Source of the DNA: Candidatus Yanofskybacteria bacterium RIFCSPHIGHO2_01_FULL_43_32
GTDB taxonomy: Bacteria; Patescibacteriota; Minisyncoccia; 2-02-FULL-40-12; GWA2-44-9
DNA length: 37,750 nt
Direction: 5' to 3'
NCBI GenBank assembly: GCA_001794125.1
Contig: MGJF01000002.1
Coordinates: 1-37,750, forward strand
Shown: positions 3,211-36,071 of the stretch, piece after piece
How positions within the stretch are numbered: the first letter of the stretch is position 1
How the letters are laid out: every line of letters begins with the position of its first letter
Notes under the pieces: generated by a model
The model's database searches: none
Seen by the model: only the letters and a program-made list of their open reading frames with translations
Told to the model about the DNA's origin: nothing
Made by a program: the position numbers and the translations under genes

Positions 3211-5484
3211 ATGCAACAACAGAGCGTTCAAGAGTCAGGTTTAGTAAAATTTCTGCGTTTCGGCATTTATCTTACGGCATTTGTGCCACTTATTATTTTT
3301 AAGGATTATATCTCTCCTTTTCATTTTGGTAAGGTGATAATTTTTAGGAGTTTGATTGAAATTTTTGGGGCAGCTTATCTGGTTTTGATATTAAAAGACC
3401 GCTCCTACCTACCCAAAAGAAACAAAGTGTTTTGGGCATTGTTTTTATTTGTCTTGGCTTTTTCTTTAACCACCCTGACTAGTGTTTTAAAATATCCAAG
3501 TTTTTGGGGTTCGCTTGAAAGAATGGGCGGACTTTGGACTTTTTGGCATTACTTTTTGTATTTTATAATTTTGACCTCGGTTGTAACAAAACGTGAACAT
3601 TGGCAGAGGCTCTTGGATATTACTATTTTTGTGGGAGTACTGTCTGCGTTTTATGGGTTTGCCCAGAAAACTAATATTGAATTTTTTCTTGGTTCGGGTG
3701 GGCGTGACAGAATATTCGGCACCTTAGGCAACCCTGCATTATTCGCCGGCTACGAACTGTTTACGGTTTTTTTGTCTTTGATAATGTATTTTAATCTCAA
3801 AGACAGTCAAAACTTTCATGTCTACCGGCAGGCGGGTAAAAAGTTTTACCTTTTTGCCTTCGTGGTCGCCTCTATTGCCACTCTTTCAACTGCGGTTAGA
3901 GGATCGGTTTTAGGCTATGCGGTTGGAATTACTGTTTTTGCGTTTTTGTGGATGAAACACAAAAAATCCCTTATAGGGAGAAGGATTTTCAATGTTTTAA
4001 TTGGCTTGGCTGCTTTGTTTGTTGTCTTTTCAGTTTTATTCGGAAACTCTCCTTTTGTCGAAAGATACAAATATTTAAGTAGGATAACAGACTTATCTAT
4101 TACCTCAACCACAGTTCAAACTCGTTTTTGGGCTTGGCAGGCCGGATTTAAGGGTTGGAACGAGAATCCCAGAACCATTCTTCTTGGCTGGGGTCCAGAG
4201 AATTTTAATATTCCTTTTTCAAAACATTTTAATCCTAAATTTTTTGCAGGCATAGGTTCAGAAACTCTTTTTGACAGAGCTCATAACATGTTTATTGAGA
4301 TTCTCGTAACCATGGGGCTTGTAGGGTTCTTGGCTTATATAAACATTTTTGCAACATTATTTTCTTCCTTAAGACGATTGTCAAAAAATAATGATTTTGC
4401 CGTATATGGTATGGGACTTACCTCGGCGATAATTGCATATATAATCCACAACTCTTTTATATTTGACACCTCGGCCAACCTTATCGTTTTCTTTACGATT
4501 ACGGGATTTGTTTCCTACCTGTGTTCGGATGATAAAAAAGAGATAGGCGTTATTCAGCCATTCAGGATAAGCCGAATATTTATTAATTCAATAGCGATGG
4601 TCCTGGCCGTTTTGGTGGCGATATTGATATATAAAACAAATATTCTGCCGGCTAAGGCCAATTATGCAGTTACCAGAGCCATTGTTCGCGGGTGGGCAAG
4701 CGATTTTAATGGCGCTTTGGCAAAATACAAAGAGGCCTTATCTTACGATGTGCCTGGAAAGTATGAATACAGGCACAGATTTGCTCAATATCTAGTAGGC
4801 GGAGGAGGCCCCAGCTCAAAAGAAAAAGTAGTGCGAGATGCATATGTATTTGCAATAACTGAAGTTGATAAAAACATCAAAGAAAATTCTGTTGACTATT
4901 TACCCTATCTTTATGGTTCACGACTAAATATTATACTTGGCAAAGATGATCCTGAGTCGTCATACAATGACGAGGCCTTGGGTTACTCAATGAAGGCACT
5001 TGAGCTTTCACCGACATTCATAAGAACTTATTTTGAAATAGCTCAAGCATATTTAAATAAAAAAGATTATCCTAAAGCCATTGAATTTTTTCAAAAAGCA
5101 GTTGATCTTAATCCTGACACGGGATTGTCGCATGCCTACTTAGGTACGGTTAAAATTGAAAGCGGAGATTGGAGCGGTACAAATGATATAGACAAGGCTC
5201 TAAGCAGTAAAAATCCGTACACTCCTCGTCTGGAGGACTTACAAAGATTAATTAACACTTTTTTGCAAACAAATAATTTCAGTCGCGTTGCTTGGGCTTA
5301 TGAGATAATAATTCTATATCATCCCAACGATGAACCGCAAAATTTTGCGTCATTGGCAACTGCCTATGCTCGACTTGGCAGAATTGATGAAGCCGTAAAC
5401 ATGGCCCGCAGAGCAGCTCAGATTGATCCGTCTTTTGAAACAGATGCGCGGGTCTTTATACAGAATCTCGGTAGAGAGTTTTAG
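3211..5484 (+). CDS. O-antigen ligase/polymerase-like (Wzy_C) membrane protein with C-terminal TPRs
   Basis: A 757-residue protein from the ATG at 3211; an in-frame TTG at 3175 would coincide with the -35 box, so the ATG is preferred. About 12 membrane segments fill the first 480 residues, with Wzy_C features: RGSVLGYAVGI, a large loop holding TRFWAWQAGFKGW and LLGWGPENFN, then DRAHNMFIEILVTMGLVGF. These enzymes join a lipid-linked glycan to an acceptor (lipid A, protein or another glycan) on the outer face. From about residue 495 the protein has TPR units, including AYLNKKDYPKAIEFFQKAVDLNP. TPR tails are found on PglL/PilO-type protein ligases and on many CPR ligase-like proteins. The order with the TMTC-like gene suggests protein glycosylation, which is inference. 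Converges with the next gene 12 bases away. Confidence 0.85.
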   Translation: MQQQSVQESGLVKFLRFGIYLTAFVPLIIFKDYISPFHFGKVIIFRSLIEIFGAAYLVLILKDRSYLPKRNKVFWALFLFVLAFSLTTLTSVLKYPSFWGSLERMGGLWTFWHYFLYFIILTSVVTKREHWQRLLDITIFVGVLSAFYGFAQKTNIEFFLGSGGRDRIFGTLGNPALFAGYELFTVFLSLIMYFNLKDSQNFHVYRQAGKKFYLFAFVVASIATLSTAVRGSVLGYAVGITVFAFLWMKHKKSLIGRRIFNVLIGLAALFVVFSVLFGNSPFVERYKYLSRITDLSITSTTVQTRFWAWQAGFKGWNENPRTILLGWGPENFNIPFSKHFNPKFFAGIGSETLFDRAHNMFIEILVTMGLVGFLAYINIFATLFSSLRRLSKNNDFAVYGMGLTSAIIAYIIHNSFIFDTSANLIVFFTITGFVSYLCSDDKKEIGVIQPFRISRIFINSIAMVLAVLVAILIYKTNILPAKANYAVTRAIVRGWASDFNGALAKYKEALSYDVPGKYEYRHRFAQYLVGGGGPSSKEKVVRDAYVFAITEVDKNIKENSVDYLPYLYGSRLNIILGKDDPESSYNDEALGYSMKALELSPTFIRTYFEIAQAYLNKKDYPKAIEFFQKAVDLNPDTGLSHAYLGTVKIESGDWSGTNDIDKALSSKNPYTPRLEDLQRLINTFLQTNNFSRVAWAYEIIILYHPNDEPQNFASLATAYARLGRIDEAVNMARRAAQIDPSFETDARVFIQNLGREF

Positions 5485-24333: not shown

Positions 24334-25314
24334 ATGTCAAAAAACATAGATTTATCTATAGTCATCCCTCTTTTTAATGAACAAGAGGTGATACCTTTTT
24401 TAATTAACGAACTTAATAGAGTTGGTCAAACTCTCGGTAAAAATTATGAGGTTATTTTAGTGGACGATGGTTCAATCGATAATACTTTTGAGTTAGTTAA
24501 AAAGGTCGCCGACCAGGACTCCAAGTTTAAGGTTATTAAATTCTCAAGAAACTTCGGCCACCAAGCCGCTTTTAATGTTGGAATTGACTTTGCCCAAGGA
24601 GATATGGTTCTGACCATGGATGGCGACCTTCAGCACCCGCCCTCCCTAATACCGACATTTATTAAACACGCCCAAGACGGTCACGATATAGTTATCGGAG
24701 AAAGATTGGATAATAAGCAGAATTCCAGATTGAGAGAAGCAGGGGGAAGAGGTTTTTATAAATTAATGAGCGCTATTACAAACTTGGAGTTCAAGAATGT
24801 TTCCGATTTTGCTTTGTATAAAAGACCGGTGGTCAACGCGCTTAAAAAACTGCCGGAGAGAGAAAGATATTTAAGGGGCATGATCCAGTGGATAGGGTTT
24901 AAAAAGAAGTATGTGCCTTATGTTGTTGAATCAAGACGCGCCGGCAAGCCGAAATATGATATCAGGAGATTAACGAAATTGGTTTTGAGTGGAATTACAT
25001 CTTTTTCGGCTTTTCCTTTGAGGTTGGCTTTCTGGATAGGGTTGTTTGTTTTGGTTGTCAGTATTGTTTTTTCTATTTACGTCGTTGCTGATTACTATTT
25101 AAACCCTAATCCGCTGGCCGCCGGTTATGCCACTATAATTTTAGCTGTTTTGTTCCTGGGGAGTATCCAGCTGATAATTCTGGGAATCGTGGGTGAATAC
25201 ATGTATAAAATGTTTAATGAAGTTAAAGGCAGGCCTCTTTATATTGTTTCGGAAACATTGAATATTGATGGGGAAAACATAAAAGAAACTCCCTATGGAA
25301 TCCACTCGTTCTAA
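24334..25314 (+). CDS. GtrB/ArnC-like GT2 polyprenyl-phosphate glycosyltransferase
   Basis: 326 residues. GT-A domain at residues 1-225 with IVIPLFNEQEVIPFL, ILVDDGSIDNTFEL, FSRNFGHQAAFNVGIDFA, the metal-binding DGD in MDGDLQHPPSLI, and RYLRGMIQWIGF near the acceptor site. Two membrane helices follow (about 232-255 and 268-290). This is the layout of GtrB, ArnC and related enzymes, which transfer a sugar from a UDP- or GDP-sugar to polyprenyl phosphate. The product would feed GT-C enzymes such as that at 26065. Its last 20 bases overlap the next gene. Confidence 0.92.
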   Translation: MSKNIDLSIVIPLFNEQEVIPFLINELNRVGQTLGKNYEVILVDDGSIDNTFELVKKVADQDSKFKVIKFSRNFGHQAAFNVGIDFAQGDMVLTMDGDLQHPPSLIPTFIKHAQDGHDIVIGERLDNKQNSRLREAGGRGFYKLMSAITNLEFKNVSDFALYKRPVVNALKKLPERERYLRGMIQWIGFKKKYVPYVVESRRAGKPKYDIRRLTKLVLSGITSFSAFPLRLAFWIGLFVLVVSIVFSIYVVADYYLNPNPLAAGYATIILAVLFLGSIQLIILGIVGEYMYKMFNEVKGRPLYIVSETLNIDGENIKETPYGIHSF

Positions 25315-31227: not shown

Positions 31228-32184
31228 ATGGATACAAAATTTAAAAATAAAAAGTTTTTAGTTACCGGCGGATCTGGATTTTTGGGCAGCTTTGTTATTA
31301 AAAAGTTGCTGAAAAAAGGCGTGCCTGAAAAAAACATATTCATTCCCCGCTCGGAGAGTCTGGATCTTCGTAAATGGGAAAATTGCATGAAAGCGGCAAG
31401 TGGCCGGAATATAGTTATTCATCTTGCCGGAAATGTGGGTGGCATAGGTCTTAACAGGGAAAAACCGGGCGAGTTGCTTTATGACAATATTATGATGGGA
31501 GTGCAGCTTTTGGAAGCGGCACGTTTGTCTGGGGTAGAAAAATTTGTGGCAATCGGCACGGTATGTGCTTATCCCAAGTTTACCCCTGTACCTTTTAAGG
31601 AATCAGACCTTTGGAACGGTTATCCGGAAGAGACAAATGCTCCTTATGGATTAGCCAAAAAAGTTCTTTTAGTCCAAGCTCAATCCTATCGCCAGCAATA
31701 CGGCTTTAATGCCATATATCTTTTGCCGGTAAATTTATACGGCCCGGGAGACAACTTTGATCCGAAGAGTTCCCATGTGATCCCGGCTCTTATTAGAAAG
31801 GCGGCTGAGGCTAAAAAGCTAAATAAAAAACATATTGATGTCTGGGGCAGCGGAAGTGCGTCCAGAGAGTTTTTATATGTTGAGGATGCTGCCGAGGGTA
31901 TAGTTTTGGCTACAGAAAGATATGATAAACCAGAGCCGGTAAATCTTGGGGCCGGTCGTGAAATTAAAATAAAAGACCTGGTTGAAATTATCTGCGGGCT
32001 GATGAAATTTGAAGGTAAGGTGAGTTGGGATAAGTCTAAACCGGATGGTCAGCCCCGGCGATGCATGGATGTTTCCCGGGCTGCTAAAGAATTTGGATTT
32101 AAAGCCCGGACGGACTTCAACCGGGGGCTGATAAAAACAATTGACTGGTATGTCTCAAAGGAAAGAAACAGAAAAACCGCTTAA
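31228..32184 (+). CDS. GDP-L-fucose synthase-like NAD(P)-dependent epimerase/reductase
   Basis: 318 residues, the usual length. Extended-SDR fold with [11 protein letters not shown] (G14, G17, G20), [19 protein letters not shown] (T111 in place of the usual Ser, C113 conserved), YGLAKK (Y140, K144) and [14 protein letters not shown]. The SxC...YxxxK set is that of GDP-L-fucose synthase, which turns GDP-4-keto-6-deoxymannose into GDP-L-fucose. The dehydratase that would supply it is at 17102. The Ser-to-Thr change keeps the hydroxyl. An epimerase for a related sugar is the alternative. Single-gene unit with its own terminator. Confidence 0.85.
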
Positions 32185-32196
32185 GGCGGTTTTAAT
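32173..32196 (+). terminator. Intrinsic terminator overlapping the reductase stop codon
   Basis: AAAACCGC at 32173-32180 pairs with GCGGTTTT at 32186-32193 across TTAAG, followed by a T-rich run (TTTTAATTTTATT). The stop codon at 32182-32184 is in the loop. Confidence 0.85.
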
Positions 32197-32217
32197 TTTA
32201 TTATAAAATAACCTCTT

Positions 32218-32237
32218 TTGACCCCTTTTGACACCTC
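32218..32237 (+). repeat. Two 10-bp direct repeats upstream of the ABC exporter
   Basis: TTGACCCCTT (32218-32227) and TTGACACCTC (32228-32237) stand head to tail, just upstream of the predicted -35 box at 32242. They match the three repeats at 35790-35819 before the BldC-like HTH gene. Confidence 0.75.
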
Positions 32238-32241
32238 CTTA

Positions 32242-32270
32242 TTGCGCAAATTCGAGAAAATTGGTATCTT
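32242..32270 (+). promoter_or_regulatory. Predicted promoter of the ABC exporter gene
   Basis: TTGCGC at 32242-32247, a 17-base spacer and TATCTT at 32265-32270, nine bases before the ATG at 32280. The leader would be two or three bases at most. Confidence 0.45.
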
Positions 32271-32279
32271 TTAGGGGTT

Positions 32280-34109
32280 ATGTTCAAGGAATTAACCGCA
32301 ACACATTTCCAAAACATAAAAAAAATCCACAGAGTTTTCGTGGTTTTTAAGCGTGCCTATTGGCAATATAGGTGGCGGATTTTAGTCACAACTTTATTGG
32401 GGTTTGTCAGCAGTCTTCTGGGCGGTCTGGGCATTAGCATGCTGATACCGCTTTTTGCTTTTGTTACCCAGCAAAACAGTACCGGCACCTCTAATGTTTT
32501 TTATCAGCTTGTTGCAAAAATTTTCTCTTTTCTCCATCTAAGTTATAATTTGCCCATCCTTTTGGTTTTAATGGTCTCGTTTTTTATCGGGAAGGCCGTA
32601 ATAACGATTCTGACCATTCATCTTAGCGATAAAATTTCTGCACAGTATGACCGCAACATCAGCTCTATGTTGTTTAAAAAAACCCTTGAAGCTGACTGGA
32701 CATTTCTTATGAACCAAAGGGTCGGATATCTTGACAGGGTAATTTCTAACGACGTTGCCGCCGGATCAAATATACTCAGAGCCATCAGTGAATTAATGCT
32801 TAGGGTTGCAAGTTTAATAACGTACGCTGCCATTGCTTTTAAATTGTCAGTTTCCATAACCCTTATGTCTTTGGTGGGAGGGGCGCTTATCCTCGTGGTT
32901 TTAAAACCCCTTTTCTTTAAGACAAGGAAACTTGCCAAACACGCAAATCTTACCGGTAAAAAACTAGGTCATCTTATCAATGAGAGTTTGATCGGCATTA
33001 AAACAATAAAAGCTTTTGCCGTTGAGCCGTCATTGGTCAAAAGGGGCTATTTTTATTTTGAAGAATTACGAAAAGCCCGCATTAAAACATCTTTGATAAG
33101 CAGTTTTCAAGGCACACTATTTGAGCCGGTCTCCCTCCTCTTCATCTCTATAATATTTGCTTATTCTTTTAAATCCCCTGATTTTAATATTGCTTCTTTT
33201 GCGGTAATAATTTACCTTATCCAAAAAATGTATTCCTATATTCAAGGAATCCAGGGCAAGCTGGACGGTATCAACTCTTTGTTTACTTATCTGGAAACGA
33301 TGCTTAGCTATCAAAAAGAGGTTCAGCAGTACAAAGAAAATACACCCGGTACTGAACCGTTCAAATTTGAACAAGAAATAAGTATTCAGGATGTTGGTTT
33401 TGCTTATCCGAATATGGAATCAAACACTTTGTCGGATATTAATTTTACAATCCAAAAGGGCGAGATGATCGGCATAATCGGACCTTCCGGCGCCGGAAAG
33501 ACCACCTTGGTTGATATTTTTTTGCAGCTATTAAAACCCCAGAGCGGAGTTGTCAAAATTGATGAAGTTGACATTAATTCCATCAAACTGGATGCTTGGC
33601 GAAAAAACATAGGATATGTTTCACAGGATGTTTTCCTTCTCAACGACACTATTGAGGCCAATATTCGCTTTTATGATGAAAGTATTTCCCGTGAGAGCAT
33701 AGAGAATGCTTCAAAGATGGCGAATATTTATGATTTTATCCAGGGGTTGCCGAATAAATTTGAAACACAGGTTGGAGAACGAGGTATTAAATTATCCGGA
33801 GGTCAAAGACAGCGCATTGCCCTGGCAAGGGTTTTGGCTAAAAAATCCTCTGTCTTAATTCTTGATGAAGCAACAAGCTCCATAGATAACGAATCGGAGG
33901 CATTGATTCAAAAATCAATAAATAATCTGAAAGGAAAAGTTACGGTCTTGGTAATTGCTCATCGCTTAACAACCGTAATGAGTTCTGACAGAATTATTGT
34001 TATAGATAACGGGAAACTTATTGAATCAGGCGCACCGTCTGAGTTGATAAAAAACCAGGATTCCTACCTGTACAAAAGCTACCATATTAAAGATAAAGAA
34101 ATTGCCTAA
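32280..34109 (+). CDS. MsbA/PglK-like ABC exporter (fused permease-ATPase)
   Basis: 609 residues. Six membrane helices lie in residues 35-330, with the type I exporter fold and the conserved VGYLDRVISNDVAAGS loop. The ATPase half has GPSGAGKTTLVD (Walker A, about 401-412), SQDVFLLNDTIEANI (Q-loop), LSGGQRQRIALARVL (signature, about 505), SVLILDEATSSIDNES (Walker B) and VLVIAHRL (H-loop). Half-transporters of this type dimerise and flip lipid-linked glycans or glycolipids outward. It is the only flippase-like gene seen in the window and is therefore a good candidate for export of the glycan built by the neighbouring enzymes. The 10-bp repeats upstream suggest control shared with the HTH gene at 35826. 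Confidence 0.92.
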   Translation: MFKELTATHFQNIKKIHRVFVVFKRAYWQYRWRILVTTLLGFVSSLLGGLGISMLIPLFAFVTQQNSTGTSNVFYQLVAKIFSFLHLSYNLPILLVLMVSFFIGKAVITILTIHLSDKISAQYDRNISSMLFKKTLEADWTFLMNQRVGYLDRVISNDVAAGSNILRAISELMLRVASLITYAAIAFKLSVSITLMSLVGGALILVVLKPLFFKTRKLAKHANLTGKKLGHLINESLIGIKTIKAFAVEPSLVKRGYFYFEELRKARIKTSLISSFQGTLFEPVSLLFISIIFAYSFKSPDFNIASFAVIIYLIQKMYSYIQGIQGKLDGINSLFTYLETMLSYQKEVQQYKENTPGTEPFKFEQEISIQDVGFAYPNMESNTLSDINFTIQKGEMIGIIGPSGAGKTTLVDIFLQLLKPQSGVVKIDEVDINSIKLDAWRKNIGYVSQDVFLLNDTIEANIRFYDESISRESIENASKMANIYDFIQGLPNKFETQVGERGIKLSGGQRQRIALARVLAKKSSVLILDEATSSIDNESEALIQKSINNLKGKVTVLVIAHRLTTVMSSDRIIVIDNGKLIESGAPSELIKNQDSYLYKSYHIKDKEIA

Positions 34110-34113
34110 ACAT

Positions 34114-35094
34114 ATGAGAAAGAAACTTTTTTTAAAAGAATTTTGTAAAAAAATTCTTCCGAAGCAGATTATAAATCTGGCAAATAAAATAAAAAACAAG
34201 TCAATCAGTATCGGACGCAGAATAGAAGCACTCAAAATAATAAAGAGTAATCTGGAAGAACTGAGCGTGAAATTAAAAAAAGAAACCCCAGATCAAAGAA
34301 TATATAGAACCGAACTGTTTAATTCTATAAAAAATATTGATAATCAAAGAGCCGAATGCACAAGTTTGTGGGACAAATACCGGCAAGACATCAGGCGGTA
34401 TATATTGAAAAAAGACCTGAGAAATTTTTTGAGATGGGATCCTGTTATTGAAACAATGTCCGCCGGAGCTCGTAAACCCGAATTTGATTATCTGCTTAAC
34501 TATAATTGGGATAAATGGTCGCCGGCAATAACGGAAACTTGGGTCGGTAATCCTCCGAAGTATAAATATTGGAAGAAAAGCAGTGGTAACTTTATAAACA
34601 CTGCCTACAATTTGTCACGGCTGATTGATTACATTCCAATTGATATAAAGCAAGCCGGTAAAATAGTGGAATTTGGCGGAGGTTACGGTTGCATGGCCAA
34701 GCTTGTTAATAATTTAGGATTTAGGGAGAAATATACGATTTTTGATATACCTGAGTTTTTATCACTTCAAAAATATTACCTGCACTCGAGCAATACAGAC
34801 GGAAATTTTAATTTTATCAGCCAGACAGAAAAGCTGGATGATTCAAATCCCGATATTTTTATAGCCACCTGGTCTCTAAGTGAATCTCCGGTTGAGTTGC
34901 GGGATGAATTTCTGAAAAAAATAGGTCAACCTAAATATGTGCTGATAGCATATCAGGCGGTCTTTGAAACGATAGACAACGTGAAATATTTTGATGAATA
35001 TATGAAAAATAACCAGGACCATGACTGGATCAATTACGAAATAAAACATTTGCCTCAAAATTATTACTTAATCGGCAAGAGAAACTTAAACTAA
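34114..35094 (+). CDS. Putative sugar O-methyltransferase
   Basis: 326 residues from the ATG at 34114, four bases after the exporter stop; a TTG at 34102 is also in frame. The first 110 residues are charged and helical, perhaps coiled coil. The SAM-binding part is KIVEFGGGYGCMAKLVNN (about residues 188-206), then YTIFDIPEFLSLQKYYL and PDIFIATWSLSESP. This matches the putative sugar O-methyltransferase family (NanM-like) seen in polysaccharide gene clusters. It probably acts on the glycan that the adjacent ABC transporter exports, possibly as terminal cap; the cap idea is inference. Confidence 0.82.
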   Translation: MRKKLFLKEFCKKILPKQIINLANKIKNKSISIGRRIEALKIIKSNLEELSVKLKKETPDQRIYRTELFNSIKNIDNQRAECTSLWDKYRQDIRRYILKKDLRNFLRWDPVIETMSAGARKPEFDYLLNYNWDKWSPAITETWVGNPPKYKYWKKSSGNFINTAYNLSRLIDYIPIDIKQAGKIVEFGGGYGCMAKLVNNLGFREKYTIFDIPEFLSLQKYYLHSSNTDGNFNFISQTEKLDDSNPDIFIATWSLSESPVELRDEFLKKIGQPKYVLIAYQAVFETIDNVKYFDEYMKNNQDHDWINYEIKHLPQNYYLIGKRNLN

Positions 35095-35789: not shown

Positions 35790-35819
35790 TTGACACCTTT
35801 TGATACGTTTTGATACCTT
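35790..35819 (+). promoter_or_regulatory. Three 10-bp tandem repeats covering the HTH-gene promoter
   Basis: TTGACACCTT (35790-35799), TTGATACGTT (35800-35809) and TTGATACCTT (35810-35819) follow without gaps. The first repeat contains a consensus -35 (TTGACA, 35790-35795) and the last contains the -10 (TACCTT, 35814-35819; 18-base spacer). The ATG at 35826 is six bases after the -10, so the mRNA should be leaderless. A protein bound to the repeats would block or reshape the promoter. Confidence 0.8.
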
Positions 35820-35825
35820 AGGTAG

Positions 35826-36071
35826 ATGAGTGAAATAAATCCGAATGAGGTTTATACAACCTCCGAAGTCCAATCGCTTTTGAAAATTAGTAAGAGTACT
35901 GTGAAGCGGCTTCTAAAAAACAAACTTATCCAAGCCAATAAAGTTGGCGGACACTACCGAGTTATGGGCAAAGAACTTCTTAGAATAGTGTCACCACGCA
36001 TAGAAAAAAGGGCTGTTGCAACATACCAGCGCTTAAAGAAAAAAGTTAAACGCAAAATTAAAACTTGGTAA
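35826..36071 (+). CDS. BldC/excisionase-like MerR-type HTH DNA-binding protein
   Basis: 81 residues. A single winged HTH at about residues 9-55: YTTSEVQSLLKISKSTVKRL, followed by KNKLIQANKVGGHYRV, where GGHYR is the wing signature shared by BldC, excisionases and MerR-family regulators. A basic C-terminal tail (KKKVKRKIKTW) follows. There is no effector domain. BldC of Streptomyces is known to bind DNA direct repeats as head-to-tail multimers; the 10-bp tandem repeats directly upstream of this gene fit such a protein acting on its own promoter. It is followed after seven bases by a long membrane-protein gene, with which it is probably co-transcribed. Confidence 0.85.
   Translation: MSEINPNEVYTTSEVQSLLKISKSTVKRLLKNKLIQANKVGGHYRVMGKELLRIVSPRIEKRAVATYQRLKKKVKRKIKTW

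Follow-up and report, generated by a model that had tools for sequence, protein, structure and literature searches.

The locus and its tandem repeats

The window, i.e. the whole 37,750-nucleotide stretch that was analysed, contains a gene for an ABC exporter and, 3.5 kb from it, a gene for a small helix-turn-helix (HTH) protein, each with its own array of tandem 10-bp repeats upstream. The features considered here are:

32173..32193, plus strand: terminator-like hairpin at the end of the preceding transcription unit
32218..32237, plus strand: putative two-unit direct-repeat operator of the exporter, TTGACCCCTT TTGACACCTC (pattern scan and motif model from other species)
32242..32270, plus strand: weak promoter-like pair TTGCGC (32242-32247), 17 bp, TATCTT (32265-32270), with an extended -10 TG, proposed from reading the sequence
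32280..34109, plus strand: ABC exporter of 609 aa (Pfam ABC_membrane and ABC_tran)
34114..35094, plus strand: ORF directly after the exporter, probably co-transcribed with it, no Pfam match
35790..35819, plus strand: three-unit array TTGACACCTT TTGATACGTT TTGATACCTT (pattern scan and alignment)
35826..36071, plus strand: winged-HTH regulator of 81 aa (Pfam HTH_17) with a predicted BldC-like fold and a long C-terminal helix
36079..37750, plus strand: 658-aa ORF starting 7 bp after the HTH gene and continuing to C2:38055 of the contig, no Pfam match

The two repeats upstream of the exporter, TTGACCCCTT at 32218-32227 and TTGACACCTC at 32228-32237, lie back-to-back without a gap, exactly as the original prediction had placed them, and the ATG of the exporter (32280) is 42 bp downstream. 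The hairpin separates the exporter from the preceding gene, so the exporter needs its own promoter in the gap between them. The repeat reported earlier at the HTH gene is also present, but as three units rather than two. A strict pair pattern matched the window only at 32218, 35790 and 35800, i.e. at the exporter and the HTH gene, in agreement with the claim that no tandem pair exists elsewhere in it. The single 10-mer GTGATACCTT noted before inside a coding region was found at 24388, but it is not the only one, because further lone exact matches to TTGACMCCTY lie at 4463 and 6712. The 658-aa ORF, which has a hydrophobic N-terminal part, probably shares an operon with the HTH gene.

Conservation of the array and co-occurrence with the HTH gene

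Orthologues of the HTH protein (54-81% identity) were collected across many lineages of Patescibacteria, 80 named genome loci in all (Yanofsky-, Magasanik-, Falkow-, Taylor-, Komeili-, Buchanan- and Uhrbacteria, among others); the protein is also present in other classes of the phylum. A tandem pair was found within 200 bp upstream of 75 of the 80 orthologues, whereas the rest of the same loci gave 5 pairs in 1.66 million strand-bases, which corresponds to 0.0006 expected per stretch. These 75 arrays (40 with two units and 35 with three) share a period of 10 bp and the unit TTGAYACYTT. When seven relatives from the order were aligned, the array was the main conserved block in upstream DNA that is variable and otherwise unalignable.

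Among 384 genomes of the class, 21 contained both the gene and a two-unit array, 7 the gene alone, 13 the pattern alone and 343 neither (21/28 vs 13/356, p = 4e-20; reversed control, p = 0.73), although much of this co-occurrence restates the HTH gene's own array. Within the order, 13 of 45 genomes have triple arrays (none with the reversed control), and the association of the HTH gene with triple arrays located elsewhere in the genome, i.e. in trans, is weaker (5/10 vs 4/35, p = 0.017).

The alternative that survives best, though we consider it unlikely, is that a different regulator binds the array and that the HTH gene is merely one of its targets. It would account for G041 and G042, two genomes rated 100% complete, in which arrays are present and no clear HTH orthologue was found; several of these arrays lie near contig ends. 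However, across species the HTH gene keeps its array in 75 of 80 cases while its other neighbours vary, the presence of arrays tracks the presence of the HTH gene, and the fold relative BldC (see below) binds repeats of this kind. A divergent HTH gene in G042 (C8:35860) carries no array and is not an orthologue.

Arrays in the genome and their target genes

In the whole 762-kb genome the strict pattern occurs at three places (reversed control: 0), and it is absent from 11.3 Mb of first-order Markov sequence generated with the composition of the window; tandem copies are thus not frequent at random places. The third place is a triple array at C2:59289-59318, 23.5 kb beyond the HTH gene, followed after 26 bp by the ATG of a gene encoding a fusion of a pyruvate-kinase barrel with a PUA_2 domain (PK/PUA_2). 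With a position matrix built from the 75 arrays of other species alone, the three places came out on top with scores of 29.6, 28.3 (the exporter, second-best tandem pair) and 26.8. The next-best pair scored 15.4 and pairs with wrong spacing 14.8 at most. A regulon run by the HTH protein, as the original prediction proposed, has strong support from conservation, co-occurrence and linkage, but instead of two genes it has at least three members in this genome.

The pair scoring 15.4 is a degenerate one, CTGACCCCATCTGATACC at C2:281342-281361, which abuts the ATG of a transporter-like ORF; it may be a fourth site or a chance match, and with 14.8 reached by chance we do not claim it. Pattern matches in G010, G011 (contig C4) and G025, without a third unit and apparently inside other genes, were likewise treated as chance. 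The PK/PUA_2 gene (C2:59345 onward; L004:1557-3020) sits inside a glycan cluster, and its PUA_2 domain is ATP-sulfurylase N-terminal-like.

The genes that carry arrays in trans in other genomes encode an NAD-dependent epimerase (G002), a PseB-like Polysacc_synt_2 protein (G003), DegT aminotransferases (G004, G042), a HisF-like protein (G004), a radical SAM protein (G011), glycosyltransferase-like proteins (G011, G042; assigned by sequence resemblance alone, no Pfam match), MptE-like proteins (G011, G041, G042; below the Pfam cut-off), an ABC-2 permease-like protein (G315) and a GDP-mannose dehydratase-like product (L109). The PK/PUA_2 gene carries the array in two genomes, the present one and G001 (L067). 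Of 79 loci, 50 have a glycan exporter directly after the HTH gene. ABC exporters account for 26 of these, Wzx-type flippases for 13 and ABC-2 permeases for 11. All 26 ABC exporters are orthologues of the exporter in the window, with 37-47% identity over nearly the full length. Since orthologues of the exporter so commonly adjoin the HTH gene, membership of the window's exporter in the regulon is sensible.

The repeat pair upstream of the exporter

The exporter pair differs from the array at the HTH gene in having two units rather than three, one of them with the rarer C at position 6. It ends 4 bp before the weak -35-like TTGCGC, and there is no good promoter in register with the repeat units, a geometry unlike that at HTH genes. 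A scan of 32191-32280 for consensus hexamer pairs found none with at least 9/12 matches, and TTGCGC/TATCTT falls below this threshold. No array was found within 200 bp upstream of the two closest exporter orthologues (G003 and G004; 63-64% identity), so that the conservation expected in relatives holds for the motif but not for the exporter itself in these two genomes. The missing third unit, the rarer C, the absence from the closest orthologues and the different promoter geometry would all suit a chance look-alike, with regulation confined to the HTH gene and the other genes with triple arrays. We consider this quite improbable, as the pair scores 28.3 where other chance pairs in the genome reach 15.4 at most, sits in one of the few intergenic gaps, and precedes a gene whose orthologues elsewhere are found as operon partners of the HTH gene more often than any other gene.

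If the exporter pair is an operator, the effect of its occupation could be of either sign. The array lies directly upstream of the weak promoter, where an activator would plausibly sit, and the activation proposed originally is allowed by this geometry, but the -35 box on which it was based is poor. We give activation about an even chance, and hindrance of the weak promoter somewhat less, roughly one in three.

The array is built into the promoter of the HTH gene

At the HTH gene in the window, unit 1 provides a -35 box TTGACA, followed after 18 bp by TACCTT of unit 3 as the likely -10 box; in the window's family, unit 1 contains TTGACA, and at the -10 position, 18 bp further along, unit 3 has a TACYAT-like end. 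When -10 boxes (at least 5/6 matches to TATAAT) were searched in the 75 arrays, their distances from the penultimate unit peaked at 16, 17 and 18 bp (12, 12 and 16 matches, 40 in all). About 2 would be expected over these three spacers, at ~1% per position, and neighbouring spacers mostly gave 0-4. This peak indicates that TTGACA of the penultimate unit is the -35 box and that the last unit lies inside the spacer. The start codon is often within a few bases of the HTH promoter, so the message is probably leaderless. A protein bound to an array that comprises the -35 box and the spacer would block polymerase, i.e. exert negative autoregulation. Autorepression of the HTH gene by promoter occlusion thus appears likely from the sequence, and the repression originally proposed at this gene gains good support from the way array and promoter overlap.

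In many species one unit, correctly spaced from TATAAT, does serve as the -35 box, which also fits the idea that the repeats are multiplied -35 boxes (TTGACA) strengthening the promoter, with no regulator involved. This is very unlikely, because bases outside the hexamer are conserved (C at position 7, CTT at 8-10), the 10-bp period is strict, units lie upstream of the -35 box and inside the spacer, and the repeats are rare elsewhere in the genome and tied to one gene family.

The HTH protein and comparison with known regulators

The AlphaFold2 model of the HTH protein consists of a winged HTH and a long helix (residues 57-80), with a pLDDT of 90. Its top fold matches in the PDB are BldC-DNA complexes (6AMK chain B: 50 residues, rmsd 1.3, TM 0.84 by target). 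At the sequence level BldC was the only sensible match, with insignificant phmmer E-values of 0.55-0.69, and a profile search of the PDB yielded no match with E < 0.01. On the recognition helix, the Arg30 that reads guanine aligns with Arg28, invariant in 61 relatives. On direct repeats, BldC assembles head-to-tail into cooperative multimers (PMC5859096). It can repress as well as activate, and its consensus has been judged too loose for predicting sites (PMC6428758).

BldC of Streptomyces (6AMA, 6AMK; PMC5859096) resembles the HTH protein in being a small MerR-like winged HTH without an effector domain and in having operators made of a variable number of direct repeats. However, BldC recognizes AATTXXXXC every 9 bp, whereas the unit here is TTGAYACYTT every 10 bp and far stricter; the HTH protein has an extra conserved C-terminal helix of 24 residues; and the targets of BldC are developmental, whereas those found here are glycan genes. 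By analogy and from the model, we suggest that the HTH protein acts in the manner of BldC. We do not assign it to the BldC family, since the repeat consensus and period differ and the sequence homology is not significant. The C-terminal helix (residues 57-81) is basic, ends with an invariant Trp and is absent from BldC; it may mediate oligomer contacts or the binding of a partner.

Classical MerR proteins share the winged-HTH fold and an operator that overlaps the promoter spacer. However, they bind palindromes as dimers, whereas the operators here are direct repeats, and neither a coiled coil of a known dimerisation type nor a dimerisation or effector domain like those of MerR was found in the protein. 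MamR (NF040990) gave the best NCBIfam alignment to the HTH half, but the score of 45.8 against an equivalog cut-off of 100 shows that the protein is not a member.

The HTH protein passes the cut-off of the excisionase domain TIGR01764 (36.2 vs 28.8 bits) and shares with excisionase-type HTH_17 proteins (TIGR01764; RdfS) the domain family. Least probable of all is a role in recombination, with the protein acting as an excisionase (recombination directionality factor) and the arrays serving as recombination or excision sites that bound exchangeable glycan cassettes. RdfS-like excisionases do oligomerise on DNA and appear in the fold list, and glycan loci do differ between species. However, the arrays precede start codons by distances that suit promoters, and the -10 boxes are in phase with them; the families listed for the first genes downstream at 79 loci include no integrase or recombinase, and a search of viral contigs found no relatives of the protein.

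Proposed mechanism and significance

We put at roughly 80% the probability that the 81-aa HTH protein has its operator in these repeats, with which it would repress its own gene and control surface-glycan genes in trans. The computations establish the arrays, their conservation, their link to the HTH and glycan genes and the geometry of the HTH promoter, and we infer binding, its stoichiometry, the sign of regulation and any signal. The protein would bind TTGAYACYTT in two or three copies arranged head-to-tail, each 10 bp taking up one subunit, and by analogy with BldC the binding would be cooperative. With units exactly 10 bp apart, all subunits would lie on one face of the DNA, which suits a head-to-tail chain. 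Arrays in trans would place genes of glycan synthesis and export under the same control, in this genome the ABC exporter and the PK/PUA_2 gene. A more general proposal, which we hold tentatively and as easily wrong as right, is that in scattered Patescibacteria lineages a cooperative filament of this regulator on promoter-fused 10-bp repeats forms a dedicated surface-glycan switch, with autorepression setting its level and with in-trans targets that vary by species as exchanged cassettes gain or lose the operator.

Taken at the level of sequence, the paired repeats point to a real control site and to a previously undescribed regulon for the synthesis and export of surface glycans. No earlier description of this regulon was found in the open-access literature (subscription journals lay outside the search), and no transcriptional regulon in Patescibacteria was found described in the literature searched. 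Patescibacteria are mostly episymbiotic or uncultured, and sequence here reveals a regulator together with its DNA code and its targets, all of which can be tested outside the uncultured hosts. It is through their surface glycans, the targets here, that these small cells presumably meet hosts and phages. Direct-repeat recognition by BldC-like proteins would also gain a second and much stricter example.

Two minor observations concern individual genomes. In the G014 orthologue (L065) an early stop truncates the C-terminal helix, and the upstream array is intact. In G041, G058, G064, G216, G478 and G696 the HTH genes or arrays often lie ~1 kb or less from contig ends, as if glycan loci differed between strains.
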